A stretch of 64,000 nt of DNA from positions 1 to 64,000 of the forward strand of contig JBDRZP010000004.1 of assembly GCA_039804025.1 (NCBI GenBank), given 5' to 3'. How positions within the stretch are numbered: position 1 is the stretch's first letter; the number at the start of each line of letters is the position of its first letter. Origin of the DNA: a candidate division WOR-3 bacterium (GTDB taxonomy: Bacteria; Hydrothermota; Hydrothermia; Hydrothermales; JAJRUZ01). The position numbers and the translations under genes were made by a program. Below, piece by piece: positions 28,977 to 40,539 of this stretch. A model generated the notes under the pieces. The model was given only the letters and a program-made list of their open reading frames with translations. It was not told the DNA's origin and did no database searches.

Positions 28977-29549
28977 TTATTTAATAAACTTTAAAAAGGT
29001 GAAAAGAATGGCAGTTATAACACCTATTTCACCTACCCAGAATATAAACATCCATTTTATTATATTTGAATAACTCCTTGCAATTTCAATCCTTAATCTT
29101 GAGGATTCTTCAGTTATTCTATTATCAAGTTTCAAAGTTTCTTCAGTTATTCTCTTATCAAGTTTTGTTATATCCTCTGATTTTAATTTGTTAATTTCTT
29201 CACTAATTTTTTTATCCAGTCTATTAGTTTCTTCACTAATCTTTTTATCAAGTTTATTAATTTCTTCAGTAATTTTTTTATCAAGTTTTACGGTTTCTTC
29301 ACTTATTTTTTTATCCAGTTTGTTAGTTTCTTCACTTATTTTTTTATCCAGTTTGTTAGTTTCTTCACTTATTTTTTTATCCAGTTTGTTAGTTTCTTCA
29401 GAAAGTCTCCTCTCATATTTTTCAGTTTGTAATTCAACTAATTCAATTTTTAAAGTTTCATTAGAGGCATTTAAAAGTTCAATTAATGCCTCAACTACAT
29501 CTTCACCCAATTTTTCTCTCAATAACTTTGGAATAGTTATTATTTTCAT
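28977..29549 (-). CDS. Membrane-anchored hendecad coiled-coil protein (DUF1640-like)
   Basis: 190 residues. The N-terminal part (IPKLLREKLGEDVVEALIEL) is followed by about nine 11-residue repeats of the type LDKKISEETNK and one C-terminal transmembrane helix. Eleven-residue periodicity favours a right-handed coiled-coil stalk. The overall layout resembles the DUF1640/CCDC90-like proteins found in several bacterial lineages. The gene is monocistronic. Its -10 box lies only 5 bp before the ATG, so its mRNA is probably leaderless. Function unknown. Confidence 0.7.
   Translation of the reverse strand: MKIITIPKLLREKLGEDVVEALIELLNASNETLKIELVELQTEKYERRLSEETNKLDKKISEETNKLDKKISEETNKLDKKISEETVKLDKKITEEINKLDKKISEETNRLDKKISEEINKLKSEDITKLDKRITEETLKLDNRITEESSRLRIEIARSYSNIIKWMFIFWVGEIGVITAILFTFLKFIK
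29130..29425 (-). repeat. 33-bp tandem repeats encoding the hendecads
   Basis: About nine direct repeats of 33 bp are visible, several nearly identical at DNA level (centred on ttttttatccagtttgttag on the plus strand). Such arrays are prone to copy-number change, so repeat number may vary between strains or assemblies. Confidence 0.8.
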
Positions 29550-31848: not shown

Positions 31849-33180
31849 ATGACACAACTTGAATTTGCAAAAAAAGGTAAAATTACAGAGGAAATGGTTT
31901 ATATTGCCCAGGTTGAGGGCAAAAGTAAGGAAGAGATAAGGGAACTTGTTGCTTCAGGAAGAGTAGTTATTCCAAGAAATATAAATCATAAGAATCTTAC
32001 AAAGTTCTGTGGAATAGGTGAAGGACTTAAGGTAAAGATAAATACAAATATTGGAACTTCCTATGATTATGTTAATATTGAGGAAGAAATAGAAAAAGCT
32101 AAAATAGCCATAGAATACGGAACGGATACTCTTATGGACCTTTCAACAGGTGGTGATATTAAATATATAAGGCAAAAGATTTTAGAGGTATGTACTGTCC
32201 CTCTTGGAACTGTGCCTATTTATGAGGCTGAATTTAAGGTTGCCAAAGAGAAAGGTTCAATTTATGAGATGACCCCTGATGATTTATTTGAAGTTATTGA
32301 AGAACATGGAAAACAGGGTGTTGATTATATTACTGTCCACTGTGGAATTACCTGGGAAACATTAAAAATATATCAGAATTCAGAGAGATTAACCGGTATA
32401 GTATCAAGGGGAGGAGGTCTTATAGCAGCCTGGATGTTTGAAAATAAAGAGGAAAATCCCCTTTATAAGTATTTTGACAGACTTCTTGAAATTGCAAGGG
32501 AGTACGATATGACACTTTCTCTTGGAGATGGTTTAAGGCCAGGTTCTATTAATGACTCAACTGATAGAGCTCAGATTGCTGAACTTATGGTTATAGGGGA
32601 GCTTGTTGAAAAAGCCAGAAAAAGCGGTGTTCAGGCAATGGTTGAGGGTCCAGGACACATACCCTTAAATGAAATAAAAACAAATGTTCAGATTCAGAAG
32701 AAATTAACAAATTATGCTCCCTTTTATATTCTTGGAATGCTTCCCACTGATATTGCAGCAGGTTTTGACCATATAGCAGGCGCAATAGGTGGAGCCCTTG
32801 CTGGATGGTATGGTGCCGATATGCTTTGTTATATCACACCAGCAGAACATCTTGGACTCCCGACTGTTCAGCATGTTAAAGAGGGGGTTATTGCCTTTAA
32901 AATCGCTTCTCACATAGCAGATTTAGCGAGGGGAAATAAGGAGGCTATTGAGAGAAATAGAAAAATGAGTGAGGCAAGATATAAACTGGATTGGGAAACA
33001 CAGTTTCAACTTGCTCTTTTCCCAAAAGAAGCAAGGGAAATATTTGAAAGGAGAAAGAGTGGAACTAAAGCCTGCTCAATGTGCGGCCCCTTCTGTCCAA
33101 TGAATCTTGTTGAAAAAACATTAAAGAAACAGAAAATTGAAGATTTAAAAAAAGAAGAAGAAATAAAAGTTAAGATTTAA
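31849..33180 (+). CDS. thiC: Phosphomethylpyrimidine synthase (HMP-P synthase)
   Basis: 443 residues from ATG at 31849; the upstream in-frame ATG at 31780 would place the promoter and hairpin inside the gene and adds residues not found in ThiC. ThiC converts AIR to HMP-P with S-adenosylmethionine chemistry. Seen here: DLSTGGDI, VDYITVHCGI, SRGGGLIAAWM, GLRPGSINDSTDRAQ, MVEGPGHIPLNEI and the C-terminal [4Fe-4S] motif CSMCGPFC. The thiamine genes usually next to it are absent. Its 3' end overlaps the converging cyclo-ligase gene by 11 bp. Confidence 0.95.
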   Translation: MTQLEFAKKGKITEEMVYIAQVEGKSKEEIRELVASGRVVIPRNINHKNLTKFCGIGEGLKVKINTNIGTSYDYVNIEEEIEKAKIAIEYGTDTLMDLSTGGDIKYIRQKILEVCTVPLGTVPIYEAEFKVAKEKGSIYEMTPDDLFEVIEEHGKQGVDYITVHCGITWETLKIYQNSERLTGIVSRGGGLIAAWMFENKEENPLYKYFDRLLEIAREYDMTLSLGDGLRPGSINDSTDRAQIAELMVIGELVEKARKSGVQAMVEGPGHIPLNEIKTNVQIQKKLTNYAPFYILGMLPTDIAAGFDHIAGAIGGALAGWYGADMLCYITPAEHLGLPTVQHVKEGVIAFKIASHIADLARGNKEAIERNRKMSEARYKLDWETQFQLALFPKEAREIFERRKSGTKACSMCGPFCPMNLVEKTLKKQKIEDLKKEEEIKVKI

Positions 33181-33877
33181 GGATTTCCCTTAAAATAGGA
33201 ATACTTTTAATTTTTTCTTCTGTTAAATACTCTTTTAAAATTCTATCAGGTTTTTTAAGTTTTTCTCCAGTTTTAATTACCCTATCCTGAGTTATAATAT
33301 AATCCACAGGTATATCATGGGGTAAAAGCGGGATTTCCTCATCTATAATCTGAATTTCATGGACTGTTGTTACTATCGGGGTATTTTCTTTTACAAAACC
33401 AAAATGTCTTCCTATTGCATATTCAAGGTCAGAGTATCCTCCGCCTTTACCGAGTCTTTTACCATCAATATTTAAGGCTACAGAACCAACAACTATTAAG
33501 TCAATTTTTTCAATTTCTTCTGGATGAACAGGTTTTCCAAGGATAAATGCTCCTTTTATTGTTGATGCAAATCTTTTATCTTTTATTTTATCCGGTTCAA
33601 GTTTTATAAAACATTTTAATTCTTTAAGTTTTGGAACAGCCATATAAACCGTTTTTCCTTCAAGTAAGGCTTTTTCCCTTATAATTCTTTGAGGAGAATC
33701 GGGATTTGATTTTATAAAATTTGCCTTTTCCCATATTTCTAATTTAAATAGATTTTCTCCTGCTTTTAAAGCTTCTTCAAAATTAGGTATCCTTCCAAAA
33801 GCTCCTGGAAATTTAGCTATTTTTCTTTGCTCTAACATTTTCCATACTAATTCTCTTAATTTTTGTTTTCTATTCAT
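33170..33877 (-). CDS. 5-formyltetrahydrofolate cyclo-ligase family protein
   Basis: 235 residues. The motifs RIIREKALLEGKTVYMAVPKL, the glycine-rich GKRLGKGGGYSDLEYA (GKGxGYxD signature) and VDYIITQDRVI identify the MTHFS family, which makes 5,10-methenyl-THF from 5-formyl-THF with ATP. This group, as in archaea and some thermophiles, is longer at the N-terminus than MthfS of E. coli. It is downstream of the TRAP homologue on the same strand. A one-carbon role fits, although some relatives have other substrates. Confidence 0.8.
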   Translation of the reverse strand: MNRKQKLRELVWKMLEQRKIAKFPGAFGRIPNFEEALKAGENLFKLEIWEKANFIKSNPDSPQRIIREKALLEGKTVYMAVPKLKELKCFIKLEPDKIKDKRFASTIKGAFILGKPVHPEEIEKIDLIVVGSVALNIDGKRLGKGGGYSDLEYAIGRHFGFVKENTPIVTTVHEIQIIDEEIPLLPHDIPVDYIITQDRVIKTGEKLKKPDRILKEYLTEEKIKSIPILREILKS

Positions 33878-33907
33878 TTATCTTTCTTTTAAAGAAGCTT
33901 TAGAGAT

Positions 33908-33926
33908 TGAGCCGGGTCCCCTTTTA
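33908..33926. repeat. Left arm of inverted repeat flanking the TRAP gene
   Basis: TGAGCCGGGTCCCCTTTTA on the plus strand matches the reverse complement of the element at 34323-34342 (TGAGCCGGGTTCCCATTTTA) with few differences. In the transcript the two copies could pair around the TRAP coding region or each form a small hairpin. Confidence 0.6.
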
Positions 33927-33939
33927 TTTTTCTGATTAA

Positions 33940-34272
33940 TTAAAATTCAGGAACCTTTTCTTTAAATTCCTTTAATTTGGGAATAGCTCCCTCTGCCTGA
34001 ATTTCTCCATAAGGTGTTATTACCTGTGCTTTTCCTACTATTTTAAAAGCAGAGGTGTATTCTGTCAATTGACATATTATGATTTCTCCATTGGAAAGTA
34101 TTTCAGTATGGGAGACTCTTGTCTGTAAACCTCTTGTGAGACCCATAACCCTAACTCCATCTTCAAGGGCTTTAATCACAAGGTATGGATTCCCATGGAC
34201 AGGGTTCCTGTCCTCATAAACATTCTTTTTTGTTTGTTGTTCTCTTTTAGTTCCTTCTTCATAATTTAACAT
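33940..34272 (-). CDS. mtrB: TRAP (trp RNA-binding attenuation protein, MtrB) homologue
   Basis: 110 residues. Residues 31-91 align without gaps to Bacillus TRAP: LVIKALEDGVRVMGLTRG, E-I-I-I-C-Q-L-T-E-Y-T-S-A and TPYGEI. TRAP forms an 11-mer ring that binds tryptophan and wraps (G/U)AG repeats. Residues of the tryptophan pocket are kept (Thr46, Thr51, Gln68, Thr70, Thr73, Ser74), but two of the three RNA-contacting residues of Bacillus TRAP are changed (Lys37 to Ile58, Arg58 to Val79; Lys56 kept as Lys77). There are extra ~27 N-terminal and ~18 C-terminal residues. No trp genes or long (G/U)AG arrays were noticed in the window. The ribosome site is strong (AAGGAGG). Family confident, target unknown. 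Confidence 0.82.
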   Translation of the reverse strand: MLNYEEGTKREQQTKKNVYEDRNPVHGNPYLVIKALEDGVRVMGLTRGLQTRVSHTEILSNGEIIICQLTEYTSAFKIVGKAQVITPYGEIQAEGAIPKLKEFKEKVPEF

Positions 34273-34322
34273 ACTTTTCCTCCTTTTTAATTCTTTCTTT
34301 TAAAGGTCTTTTAAAACCTTTT

Positions 34323-34342
34323 TAAAATGGGAACCCGGCTCA
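34323..34342. repeat. Right arm of inverted repeat flanking the TRAP gene
   Basis: It begins right after the TGA of trmFO and lies about 50 bp before the TRAP start. Its partner lies between TRAP and the cyclo-ligase gene. The GGGTTCCC core is reminiscent of, but not the same as, the T-arm-like leader hairpins. Confidence 0.6.
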
Positions 34343-34343
34343 T

Positions 34344-35660
34344 TCATAATTTTAATTCATTTTTAATAAAATCTTCAAGAACTTTCAAACTTCTATTTGC
34401 AACAAACTCCATTTTTTTTCTCTTATTTTTTATTTTAGGAATATCAGGAAATAGGGAGAGATTAATGTTCATCGGTGAGAACCTTTTTGGATCTGATGAT
34501 GTTACATAGTTAATAAGAGCACCTATTGCTGTTTCTTTTGGAAAAACAATTGTTTTTCCTGTTCTTTTATATAAAAAAGCATTTATACCTGCTACAAGAC
34601 CACCTGCTACTGCCTCAGTATAGCCCTCTGTTCCTGAAATTTGACCTGCAAAAAATATTCTTCTTTCTTTTTTTAAACTTAAATCAGGATTTAAAAGTGC
34701 AGGACCTAAAATATAGGAATTTCTGTGAACTGCCCCATATCTTAAAAACTCAGCTTTTTCCAATCCTGGAATCAGCCTGAAAACCCTTTCCTGTTCTTTA
34801 ATTTTTAACTGTGTCTGAAATCCTACAAGAGAAAAGGCAGAACCTTCCATATCTTCCCTTCTTAACTGCACACAGGCAAAAGGAGTTTTACCGGTTTTAG
34901 GGTCTTTAATTCCATCCGGTCTTAAGGGTCCAAACCTTAAGGTATCAAATCCCCTTTTGGCCATCTCTTCAATTGGTAAACAACCCTCAAAAAATTTTAT
35001 TTCTTTTTCAAAATCATGAACCCTTGCAATTTCAGCATTAGTTAGCTCCTTCCAGAATAGTGTATATTCTTTTTCATTCATTACTGAATTTAAATATCCT
35101 TCATCCTCTACTCCGTGTCTGTCTTTAAAGAATAATTTTTTCATATCAAGGGAATCTGCGGAAACAATTGGTGAAAGAGCATCATAAAAATAAAAGAAAT
35201 CTGATCCCGTTATTCTTTTTATCTCCTCCGCAAGTTCCCCTTCTGTTAACGGACCTGTTGCTATTATAACAATTCCGTCATCAGGTATATTTTTGACCTC
35301 TTCCCTTATAACTTCTATATTGGGATAATTTTCAATTATTTCTGTTAGATATTTTGAGAATTTTTCTCTATCAACAGTTAATGCCTTTCCCCCTGGTAGT
35401 GAGAATTTAAAAGCGCTCTCCATTACAATTGAACCGAGTCTTTTTAGTTCTTCTTTTAAAAGACCGTGGGGATGAATTAATTCTTTTGATTTAAAGGAAT
35501 TGGAACACACAAGTTCAGCCAAAAATCCTGTTTTGTGTGCAGGAGTATGTGAGAAAGGTCTTTTTTCATAAAGTATAACCTTTTCTCCCCTTTTAGCTAT
35601 CTGCCAAGCTGCCTCAACTCCAGCTAATCCTCCTCCTATTACATAAATTCTATCACTCAT
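34344..35660 (-). CDS. trmFO: Folate/FAD-dependent tRNA m5U54 methyltransferase
   Basis: 438 residues, the normal length. TrmFO adds the methyl group of m5U54 in the tRNA T-loop using methylene-THF and FADH2. The N-terminal dinucleotide fold is YVIGGGLAGVEAA; LVCSNSFKS and FACVQLRRED contain the two family cysteines; DRHGVEDEGYLN and FAGQISGTEGYTEA are typical. The start overlaps the IF-2B-like gene by 8 bp. Being in a transcript that begins with three tRNA genes is functionally apt. The T-arm-like mRNA leaders found in this window could in principle be additional substrates (speculation). Confidence 0.95.
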   Translation of the reverse strand: MSDRIYVIGGGLAGVEAAWQIAKRGEKVILYEKRPFSHTPAHKTGFLAELVCSNSFKSKELIHPHGLLKEELKRLGSIVMESAFKFSLPGGKALTVDREKFSKYLTEIIENYPNIEVIREEVKNIPDDGIVIIATGPLTEGELAEEIKRITGSDFFYFYDALSPIVSADSLDMKKLFFKDRHGVEDEGYLNSVMNEKEYTLFWKELTNAEIARVHDFEKEIKFFEGCLPIEEMAKRGFDTLRFGPLRPDGIKDPKTGKTPFACVQLRREDMEGSAFSLVGFQTQLKIKEQERVFRLIPGLEKAEFLRYGAVHRNSYILGPALLNPDLSLKKERRIFFAGQISGTEGYTEAVAGGLVAGINAFLYKRTGKTIVFPKETAIGALINYVTSSDPKRFSPMNINLSLFPDIPKIKNKRKKMEFVANRSLKVLEDFIKNELKL

Positions 35661-36384
35661 CAGTTATAAAATTATCTATAAGTTTCTTTGGCACCTCCTC
35701 AAAAAATTCATTTGTTTTTGGTAAGTTTTTAAAATTGTTTGAAATTTTCATTCTGCTTGTTAGACAAAAGGAGGGAACTTTAAAATGGTTACCAATCAAA
35801 ACAAGGGAATAGGTTCCAACTTTGTTAATTATCTTATCTTCGTAAACAGCGTCTGCTCCAAAGATTATAGCATTTAATTTGTCTATAATTTTTGTGACAT
35901 AAAGATCAGGAATTAAATCAGTTTGAAAATCTGCTTTTTTTAGTTCTTTCTCAGCTAATCTTCCTTCATCTCCTGGTCTTGATTCTGTGCAGTATATAAA
36001 GGGGTTAAAGTTCTTATCCATTTTCTTTATTTCTCTTAGAACTTTAATAACAGTTGAGCTTCTTGAATGGAGTAAAATACTTTTTTTATCCTTTAAAAGT
36101 GGGTAAACCTTTTCAGAAATTTTTTTTGGAGCTTCTTCTACTTTTCTTGTTAAGTCAATAAGAAAATCTTTTAATTTATCTTCAGGAATTTTAACTGTTT
36201 CTTCCATCAGTTTATAGAAAACAGCCATTGAAGGGTGTGCTTCAATGATTTTGGATACGGCTTTTAAAAATTCTTCTTTTTCAATTTTTTTTCTCGAAGT
36301 TAATACTCCCTTTAAAAAAGTAAGAAGAAGCTCCTCACTTCCTGATTTAAAGTCTTTTAAAACTTTGTAAACGATAGATTCCAT
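35653..36384 (-). CDS. IF-2B (eIF2B alpha/beta/delta)-like protein
   Basis: 243 residues from ATG at 36384. A longer reading would begin inside tRNA-Gly and is rejected. The C-terminal half has YCTESRPGDEGRLAEKELK, IIFGADAVYE and NKVGTYSLVLIGNHFKVP, the signature of the IF-2B superfamily, which includes ribose-1,5-bisphosphate isomerase and MtnA. Substrate unknown. Only 11 bp separate it from the 3' end of tRNA-Gly, so tRNA processing would create a nearly leaderless mRNA. Confidence 0.8.
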   Translation of the reverse strand: MESIVYKVLKDFKSGSEELLLTFLKGVLTSRKKIEKEEFLKAVSKIIEAHPSMAVFYKLMEETVKIPEDKLKDFLIDLTRKVEEAPKKISEKVYPLLKDKKSILLHSRSSTVIKVLREIKKMDKNFNPFIYCTESRPGDEGRLAEKELKKADFQTDLIPDLYVTKIIDKLNAIIFGADAVYEDKIINKVGTYSLVLIGNHFKVPSFCLTSRMKISNNFKNLPKTNEFFEEVPKKLIDNFITDE

Positions 36385-36395
36385 AGATAAATAAA

Positions 36396-36468
36396 AGCGG
36401 GGGACGGGACTTGAACCCGCAACCATCGGCTTGGAAGGCCGATGCTCTGCCTATTGAGCTACCCCCGC
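36396..36468 (-). tRNA. tRNA-Gly (anticodon TCC)
   Basis: The minus strand folds with acceptor stem GCGGGGG/CCCCCGC, D-arm TAGCTCAATAGGCAGAGCA, anticodon loop CTTCCAA and T-arm GCGGGTTCAAGTCCCGT. CCA is not encoded. It is 6 bp after tRNA-Tyr and 11 bp before the IF-2B-like gene. Confidence 0.95.
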
Positions 36469-36474
36469 TTCTAA

Positions 36475-38100: not shown

Positions 38101-40539
38101 TTATTCAATATTCAAAATTTTTATTGTTTCTGTTTTTTCTCCAAAATTTACTTTTAAAAAGTAGATATTTTTATTTATCTCGTTCTTTTTAAATTCAATT
38201 CGGTGCATTCCCTTTTGAATAGTTCCATATTCTCTTTTTTCAATTAATGAACCATTTTCACTATAAAAACTCAAAGATAAATCAGATGGATCTTTAATAT
38301 CAAAAACTAAAACAAGGGACTTTGGATTTTGTAAGACATAGAGACCATTATCTTCAAAAGGAAATCTTTTAGATAAAAATTTCTCTTCACCAATTAAACC
38401 AACTCCAAACTTTAAAATATATGCATCGACACCTCCTGCAAATCCTTGAGAATATGCGCCACCACCAGGATTATAGGTTGGGAAATTTGTTGACCAAGTC
38501 ACTCCTGTTAAAAATATATTACCTGAGGTATCTGTTGTAATTGAATAGCCATAATCATAATCATTTCCTCCGTAGTATGTTGCCCATTGCCTTTCACCAG
38601 AATTTGTAAACTTTAAAATAAATACATCATACACTCCTGCAATTTGTCCCTGAAAGTAACCACCACCTGGATCATAGATTGGGAAATCTGCTGACCAAGT
38701 GTATCCTGTTACAAATATATTACCTGAGCCATCTGTTGTAATTGATCTGCCATCATCATGACTATTTCCTCCGTAGTATGTTGCCCATTGCCTTTCACCA
38801 GAATTTGTAAACTTTAAAATAAATACATCATACCATCCTGCCCATGTTTCCTGAAAATATGCACCACCACCTGGATTATAGATTGGAAAATTTGTTGACC
38901 AAGTTGCTCCTGTTACAAATATATTACCTGAGCCATCTGTTGTAATTGAATAGCCATAATCATAATCATTTCCTCCGTAGAATGTTGCCCATTGCCTTAC
39001 ACCTGAATTTGTAAACTTTAAAATAAATACATCCGAAAAACCTTGATTTGATGCCTGAAAATATGCACCACCACCTGGATTATACGTTGGGAAGTTTGTT
39101 GAAGAAGTCCCTCCTGTTATAAATATATTACCTGAGCCATCTGTTGTAATTGAAAAGCCCAAATCAATAAAATTTCCTCCGTAGTATGTTGCCCATTGCC
39201 TTACACCAGAATTTGTAAACTTTAAAATAAATATATCCTCATACCCTGCATCTCCCTGAAAATATGCACCACCACCTGGATCATAGGTTGGGAAATTTGT
39301 TGACATAGTGTATCCTGTTACAAATATATTACCCGAGCCATCTGTTGTAATTGATCTGCCATAATCATGACTATTTCCTCCGTAGAATGTTGCCCATTGC
39401 AGGACACCAGAATTTGTAAACTTTAAAATAAATACATCATAACCTCCTGCATTTGTTCCCTGAAAATATGCACCACCACCTGGATCATAGATTGGGAAAT
39501 TTGTTGACATAGTGTGTCCTGTTAAAAATATATTACCTGAGCCATCTGTTGTAATTGAAATGCCATAATCCTTATTATTTCCTCCGTAGAATGTTGCCCA
39601 TTGCCTTACACCTGAATTTGTAAACTTTAGAATCACAGCATCAGTGCTATCATTAAAAGACCCATCAAAATAAGCGCCACCACCCGGATTACGTGTTGGG
39701 AAATTTGGTGACAAAGTCCATCCAGTTACAAATATATTAGCCCCATCTGTTGTAATTGAATAGCCATAATCATCACGGCTTCCTCCGTAGTATGTTGCCC
39801 ATAAAAGTGAAAGGGGTGGATCAATAATTAAGGGTTCTTCCATAAGATAGTCTTTAACATCAAAAGAAATTGTTTTATCATTATTAATTCTGTAAGAAAC
39901 ATCCACAAGATTTTTTCCCCCTTTTTCTCCTTCATAAGAAAAAATAGGTCCTTCCAGTATATCTCCAACAGGTGTCCTAAAAATAATCTCCTTATTCCCT
40001 TCTTTAATCTCATAATCAGCCCATTTAAATTTCATCTTCACCACGTTTATATCAGCGTAAGGCTGAACAATAAACTCATGATGCATCTTCCCATCCTCAT
40101 ATTTCCATACCCAATCCACACCAGGATAAATTTCTTTTATTTTCACTTTTCTATAAGTTATAACACCAAGAATTCCATCAGGACAGGATGAAAGATAATA
40201 GTTTGTATAACCTGGTAAAGGGTCTTCAAATTCTATATTTTCTTCTTTTATATTTGCATTTAAAAGGTCAACATCAATCCTTGCATATTTATCTTTTGAA
40301 TAAATTACATAAGAAGCTCCTTTTTCTGTTATGAATATACCAAATCCAGGAAGTTTTGCCCTTAAAAGAACCTCTTTTGCAAATTCTCCTTCCAAATTCT
40401 GGGTTTGACCAAGATTTTTTTCAAATCCTATATAATCAGTCGTCCAGCTTTTCACCATTTTTTCCGGAATAACAGATTGATTACCTTCAAAGGCATAAAG
40501 CCCTATTAACGTTAAGAGCATTGCAACCATTTTTTTCAT
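38101..40539 (-). CDS. SBBP-repeat surface protein with T9SS-like C-terminal domain
   Basis: 812 residues with a signal peptide. An N-terminal domain (~30-245, including [20 protein letters not shown]) typical of proteins that carry SBBP propellers is followed by seven ~65-residue beta-propeller repeats of the form [10 protein letters not shown]...[14 protein letters not shown]. The end (about 735-812) is a sorting-domain-like sandwich finishing with [20 protein letters not shown], like T9SS type A domains. It is expected at the cell surface. A strong ribosome site (AAGGAGG) and a full promoter precede it. Ligand unknown. Confidence 0.85.
38420..39800 (-). repeat. Seven tandem ~195-bp repeats encoding SBBP blades
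   Basis: The units share long near-identical DNA stretches (for example ccatctgttgtaattgaa and tttcctccgtag on the plus strand). High identity indicates recent expansion or gene conversion, and the array could be mis-assembled from short reads. Confidence 0.8.

Follow-up and report, generated by a model that had tools for sequence, protein, structure and literature searches.

TRAP and its RNA code

TRAP (MtrB) is a textbook RNA-binding regulator, a ring with which Bacillus senses tryptophan and turns off the genes for its synthesis. Its RNA code has looked fixed; K37 and R58 (residue numbers throughout follow Bacillus subtilis TRAP) are kept in nearly all of the other TRAPs compared here. In the crystal structure of TRAP with RNA, Lys37 stacks on G1 and Asp39 hydrogen-bonds it, Phe32 stacks on G3, which Glu36 also binds, and Arg58 is salt-bridged to Glu42 and contacts a spacer base in some subunits (PMC4854314). 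G1 contributes least to affinity, while A2 and G3 count for more (PMC4854314). The RNA-binding residues have also been enumerated elsewhere (PMC3184956). Through translation control, Bacillus TRAP represses further genes as well, among them the transporter gene trpP (cited in PMC3971595). For the mRNA of another regulator, icaR, pairing of the 5′ and 3′ untranslated regions blocks translation and invites RNase III (PMC3868564).

A clade that had kept the sensor, changed the reader and was without trpE and trpA would show a metabolite-gated RNA ring gaining new targets, and would make the TRAP recognition code testable by comparison. Four TRAPs from WOR-3 bacteria may form such a clade. One is encoded in the window, the whole stretch of 64,000 nucleotides analyzed here, with the following features:

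33940..34272, minus strand: TRAP-family (TrpBP, MtrB-like) open reading frame, ATG to TAA, 110 amino acids; core, residues 28-95; N-terminal extension, residues 1-27; C-terminal extension, residues 96-110 (AIPKLKEFKEKVPEF)
34344..35660, minus strand: trmFO (GIDA family), adjoining TRAP upstream in all four TRAP-bearing WOR-3 genomes
33170..33877, minus strand: 5-formyltetrahydrofolate cyclo-ligase family protein, downstream of TRAP; this position varies in the relatives

A TRAP-family gene in WOR-3 bacteria

The original prediction, of a gap-free TRAP (MtrB) homolog with extensions at both ends, stands. Pfam TrpBP (PF02081) matches the open reading frame at E=1e-27, with 96.2 bits against a cut-off of 21.3, so that the profile search, named earlier as a possible refutation, places it inside the family. 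The alignment runs without gaps from residue 29 to 94 and covers profile positions 4-69 of 69. Matches among solved structures are TRAP/MtrB without exception, mostly at E around 1e-20, and the extensions of 27 and 15 residues are real. The same protein falls below the 117-bit cut-off of the MtrB equivalog NF009724 (NCBIfam) at 96.2 bits, as do relatives at 95.0 and 96.7 bits.

The gene is single-copy in its own genome and has a good Shine-Dalgarno sequence (AAAAAGGAGG). Comparison with the relatives gives a dN/dS of about 0.04-0.07 (dN 0.06-0.14; dS 1.6-2.0, hence saturated at above 1.5, with third-position changes predominating), which points to strong purifying selection and so rules out a chance reading frame. 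Among the relatives the C-terminal extension is almost constant (12-13 of 15 residues the same), the N-terminal one less so (17-22 of 27).

An AlphaFold model of the monomer (mean pLDDT 66; moderate confidence in the core, low in both tails) is predicted to have the TRAP beta fold. Its closest folds are TRAP chains, with rmsd mostly 1.0-1.6 Å over 61-68 residues, and TRAP chains are the only matches at E <= 0.001. In the C-terminal tail a short helix is predicted, at low confidence, for residues 100-106.

TRAP was found in four of the 147 genomes of this phylum that were searched: the window's own (G000), one of the same genus (G029), one of the same family (G028) and one of the same order (G027). 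The genome, earlier described as FCB-like, belongs with WOR-3; its nearest named relative is a WOR-3 metagenome-assembled genome (JAJRUZ010000042.1), which NCBI taxonomy assigns to the phylum Caldifarciminota. TRAP, which had been taken as known mainly from Firmicutes, is far from confined to them. It occurs in roughly one in two of 300 genomes sampled from a single phylum, which is probably Bacillota, judged from neighbors such as SpoIVA, and TRAP is also present in phyla beyond this one and WOR-3. One genome of the Bacillus-type phylum (G409) carries two TRAP genes (L069 and L070). A phage or viral origin was rejected, as there was no match among 50,697 phages or in viral contigs. The plasmid collection gave one hit, the mtrB of Monoglobus. 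A further genome of the window's genus (G030) has neither TRAP nor trmFO although it is 96% complete, which may reflect co-loss or an assembly gap; it was set aside as a control for TRAP loss.

Profile matches bear out that the neighbors are trmFO and a folate enzyme, not trp genes. The only constant neighbor of WOR-3 TRAP is trmFO, by family a folate-dependent tRNA U54 methyltransferase. Elsewhere in the window, on the minus strand, an open reading frame at 28977-29549 has many near-identical 11-residue repeats (SEETNKLDKKI) of coiled-coil-like character and a C-terminal membrane segment, and an 812-residue protein at 38101-40539 has a signal-like start and repeated, beta-propeller-like units. 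The open reading frame at 35653-36426 (minus strand) probably starts at an internal Met (MESIVYKV), as in L002; its listed start (36384-36426) overlaps a tRNA-Gly gene (36395-36469).

A retained sensor and a changed reader

The four WOR-3 proteins were compared residue by residue with 68 TRAPs from other bacteria, 20 of them picked for their low scores, as a counterweight to a sample biased toward the best matches. Residues T25, R26, G27, T30, H34, Q47, T49 and T52 are invariant in the four WOR-3 TRAPs. S53 is Ser in two of them and Ala in the other two, a replacement seen in three of the 68 others. With the tryptophan pocket as established from the TRAP structures, the retention of ligands noted earlier holds for T25, R26, G27, T30, H34, Q47, T49 and T52, but not for S53 in two of the four proteins.

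The RNA face is altered across the clade. The original prediction of Ile and Val at two of the three Lys/Arg positions is correct: in the window protein K37 corresponds to Ile58 and R58 to Val79, with K56 retained as Lys77. All four WOR-3 proteins have Ile at position 37, which is Lys or Arg in 68/68 other TRAPs, and Val at position 58, which is Arg or Lys in 67/68. That account of the RNA contacts was incomplete, as it overlooked two further replacements, D39S and F32V. Position 39 is Ser in 4/4 WOR-3 proteins against Asp, Glu or Asn in 68/68 others; position 32 is Val in all four, against Phe, Ile or Leu in most other TRAPs and Val in two. Within the RNA-binding set K37, K56, R58, E36, D39 and F32, then, only K56 and E36 are kept in 4/4 WOR-3 proteins and the other four are replaced; E42 is also retained in all four. 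The contacts lost are mainly on the G1 side, because Lys37 and Asp39 bind G1 and the conserved Glu36 binds G3.

The four WOR-3 TRAPs form a single clade with support of 100/99, in a tree of 66 columns whose other forks are unsure. The stem of this clade is 1.2 changes per site long, where the median tip has 0.13, a pattern of rapid change first and constraint later.

A very divergent PF02081 protein found elsewhere (L014 1471-1731, minus strand; E=4e-7) is the mirror image of the WOR-3 case. Nearly all of its tryptophan ligands are gone (T25, R26, G27, Q47, T49), and it has R at position 37 and keeps K56 and R58.

Uncoupling from tryptophan synthesis

Genome searches found no trpA, and no anthranilate synthase N-domain (trpE), in G000, G028, G029 or G030. 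A TrpB above the TIGR00263 cut-off occurs in G027 only and in none of G000, G028 and G029; a TrpB-like protein that is more distant (frames of 435-440 amino acids) is encoded in G028 and G029 but not in G000. In G027 a trpEGDCFBA set lies inside an aromatic cluster (trpA and trpE named by profile, the remainder by reading the proteins).

The G027 trp leader (L017 15760-16060, minus strand) has two tandem units before trpE. The first encodes the peptide MKTLRLLKIYYWYFRKSG... (fully MKTLRLLKIYYWYFRKSGGLGVEI) and the second MMMPGSLPLYYYWFIRRG... (fully MMMPGSLPLYYYWFIRRGGGPGIMG), with YYWYF and YYYWF runs, and each is followed by a GC-rich terminator hairpin and a T run. As read from the sequence, pairing is possible between each peptide's end and the segment preceding the terminator, as in classic ribosome-mediated attenuators. 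This leader thus holds peptide attenuators instead of NAG repeats. WOR-3 TRAP is uncoupled from tryptophan synthesis, since trpE and trpA are absent from three of the four genomes and the fourth uses leader-peptide attenuation. Leaders with about 11 (G/U)AG triplets were accordingly found before no trp genes of the TRAP-bearing WOR-3 genomes. As a positive control, TRAP genes from other phyla have trpE or trpD as a neighbor, and the space between the two genes contains a long array of spaced NAG triplets (L007 1743-1795, L008 1724-1753, L009 1729-1779). The window protein should not carry an annotation as a trp operon attenuator.

An SNF-family sodium-dependent transporter gene is convergent with trpS-ribE in G000, G029 and G030 (L114, L115 and L116, with L101, L102 and L103), and because of this position the transporter is plausibly a tryptophan importer. 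Its start codon lies directly behind a promoter-like -10 box, so that the mRNA is apparently leaderless. No NAG array was found before trpS or the transporter gene. The best NAG chain in the window (35580-35638, minus strand, 11 triplets) lies inside the coding start of trmFO; it was rejected as a TRAP target, being coding and near chance level (one of 60 random 64-kb strands gave the same score), and it is not conserved in G027-G029. A search of the window for other short motifs repeated every 5-6 nt gave nothing convincing.

A predicted helix around the TRAP gene

The earlier account of the locus had also overlooked an inverted repeat around the gene:

34325..34345, minus strand: 5′ arm of the inverted repeat, gene sense GAATGAGCCGGGTTCCCATTT; overlaps the trmFO stop, upstream of the TRAP Shine-Dalgarno; conserved in G029 and G028
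34277..34292, minus strand: TRAP Shine-Dalgarno region, AATTAAAAAGGAGGAA; partly complementary to the end of the open reading frame (33938-33953), a weak, AT-rich pairing
33905..33925, minus strand: 3′ arm of the inverted repeat, gene sense AAAAGGGGACCCGGCTCAATC; directly past the TRAP stop codon; paired with the 5′ arm in the MFE and centroid folds

GC-rich complementary arms of 12-18 nt flank the TRAP gene in G000 (TGAGCCGGGTTCCCATTT / AAAAGGGGACCCGGCTCA), G029 (GGGGAGCCGGGTTCTCT / AGAGAACCCGGCTTCCT) and G028 (GCCGGGCTCCCT / GGGGAGCCCGGC), in genomes of 30-35% GC (coordinates in the relatives: L005 1351-1367 and 1789-1805; L002 5934-5945 and 6349-6360). Their pairing score was reached by 0 of 2000 mononucleotide shuffles per genome, and the three TRAP genes take places 1-3 among 126 open reading frames (about 156 kb of G000, G027, G028 and G029). 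MFE and centroid folds pair the arms in all three transcripts (z -3.7, -4.0 and -2.0), and the arms are thereby predicted to close the TRAP mRNA end to end. Inter-arm pairing holds in 97% of cells, against 23-58% when slid. The three arm sequences include two compensatory double changes and two G-U pairs; a shuffle test of this covariation is weak, being equalled by 52/500 shuffles with three sequences and two double changes. Conservation of the arms despite saturated synonymous divergence argues that both are under selection. No Rfam family was found at the arms, only tRNAs nearby.

The motif GCCGGGYTCYC occurs in G029 at the two arms only. In G028 it occurs at both arms and at two coding sites, which were dismissed as lying inside an S1-like protein and a large regulator-like open reading frame. 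In G000 the 5′ arm has it and the 3′ arm deviates from it. It is absent from G027 and from G030, the latter being weak evidence as the locus may be an assembly gap.

By inference, the arms base-pair within the mRNA and so govern how it is processed, how stable it is or how it is translated. Since the 5′ arm lies 52-56 nt upstream of the TRAP start codon, cutting of the TRAP message away from that of trmFO by RNase III, or an effect on the stability of the mRNA, is an equally plausible alternative to direct control of translation. A different possibility is that the arms are DNA elements, either transcription factor operators or the termini of a mobile cassette. Each 5′ arm is near-palindromic (GAGCCnGGCTC-like), and one motif stands in two copies around TRAP with no further intergenic copy found. 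However, within each genome the arms match each other rather than a palindrome, and in G029 and G028 the 3′ arms lack the outer half-site yet retain inter-arm pairing. A mobile cassette is ruled out because TRAP stays behind trmFO even in G027, which has no arms. Altogether, DNA elements seem an unlikely origin. Independently of the protein's changes, the conserved end-to-end complementarity around the gene offers another lead, to an unusual kind of mRNA control.

What WOR-3 TRAP may bind

WOR-3 TRAP may be a ring protein of the TRAP family that still binds L-tryptophan between its subunits but would no longer recognize canonical leader RNAs of 11 x (G/U)AG. With tryptophan present it would bind another RNA, an altered repeat read by E36 and K56 together with new hydrophobic contacts and perhaps the basic C-terminal tail. 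Ring formation, tryptophan binding and the changed RNA target are all inferred from sequence. Such a ring, responsive to tryptophan, altered in its RNA specificity, directed at a target other than trp and uncoupled from the control of tryptophan synthesis, is given a probability of roughly 50%. This is close to the original suggestion that the protein senses tryptophan and binds a different RNA or a non-RNA partner, which is the leading reading given the kept ligands, the changed RNA contacts, the non-trp neighbors, the absence of trpE and trpA from three of the genomes and the leader-peptide attenuation in the fourth; Ala at S53 in two of the proteins weakens its sensing part. Against altered specificity, binding of NAG might survive, as G1 contributes least to affinity (PMC4854314), and no target RNA was found at trpS, the SNF transporter or within the window.

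The protein may instead be an ordinary, somewhat relaxed TRAP, which binds AG-containing repeats via E36 and K56 and represses the translation or transcription of a tryptophan-uptake or other gene elsewhere in the genome. K56, E36, H34 and E42 are invariant in WOR-3 as well, A2 and G3 outweigh G1 for affinity (PMC4854314), and an auxotroph still has reason to control uptake, for which trpP of Bacillus is a precedent (as cited in PMC3971595). Yet K37 and R58, almost never lost elsewhere, are both gone clade-wide, and neither the likely tryptophan transporter nor trpS has a NAG array, which makes such a TRAP rather unlikely. A partner could also be a protein, with the lost charges and the conserved C-terminal LKEFKEK helix forming a docking face on a tryptophan-sensing ring. 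Bacillus TRAP offers a precedent, since it binds a protein, anti-TRAP. Three charged residues of the RNA face are now I, S and V, and the tail is conserved (12-13 of 15 residues) with its low-confidence helix at 100-106. The RNA-contact residues K56 and E36 nevertheless remain invariant, and trmFO is the sole constantly linked candidate gene, through a link that could be simple synteny; a protein partner appears improbable.

Returning to the ring with a changed RNA target, a fuller picture can be drawn tentatively and with some doubt: in bacteria without trpE and trpA, a tryptophan-gated ring would read a new RNA repeat (or a protein) while its own mRNA is locked by a helix between its 5′ and 3′ ends. 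If true, a TRAP regulon would exist beyond the synthesis and transport of tryptophan, and nature would have provided a switch of specificity in the TRAP code.

Comparison with known systems

The closest described proteins are the TRAP/MtrB of B. subtilis, B. stearothermophilus and B. halodurans (PDB 1wap, 1qaw, 1c9s, 3zzl). The window protein shares with them a gap-free 66-residue core, the predicted fold (TM to target about 0.9), the tryptophan-pocket residues, E36 and K56. It differs in having I37, S39, V58 and V32, in its 27-residue N-terminal and 15-residue C-terminal extensions, in scoring 96 bits against the 117-bit MtrB cut-off, and in belonging to a genome without a trp operon to control. 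TRAPs of other non-Bacillus phyla (L007, L008, L009 and relatives) likewise represent the family outside the classic genera. In contrast to the window protein, they retain K37 and R58 and are encoded next to trpE or trpD, whose leaders carry NAG arrays; the MtrB cut-off is reached by L007, L008 and L009 alike. For the arms, the nearest parallel is icaR of Staphylococcus aureus, also a regulator mRNA with a 3′ untranslated region complementary to its 5′ one (PMC3868564). There a 7-nt motif covers the Shine-Dalgarno, whereas the TRAP arms form a longer, GC-rich predicted helix about 52-56 nt upstream of the start codon.
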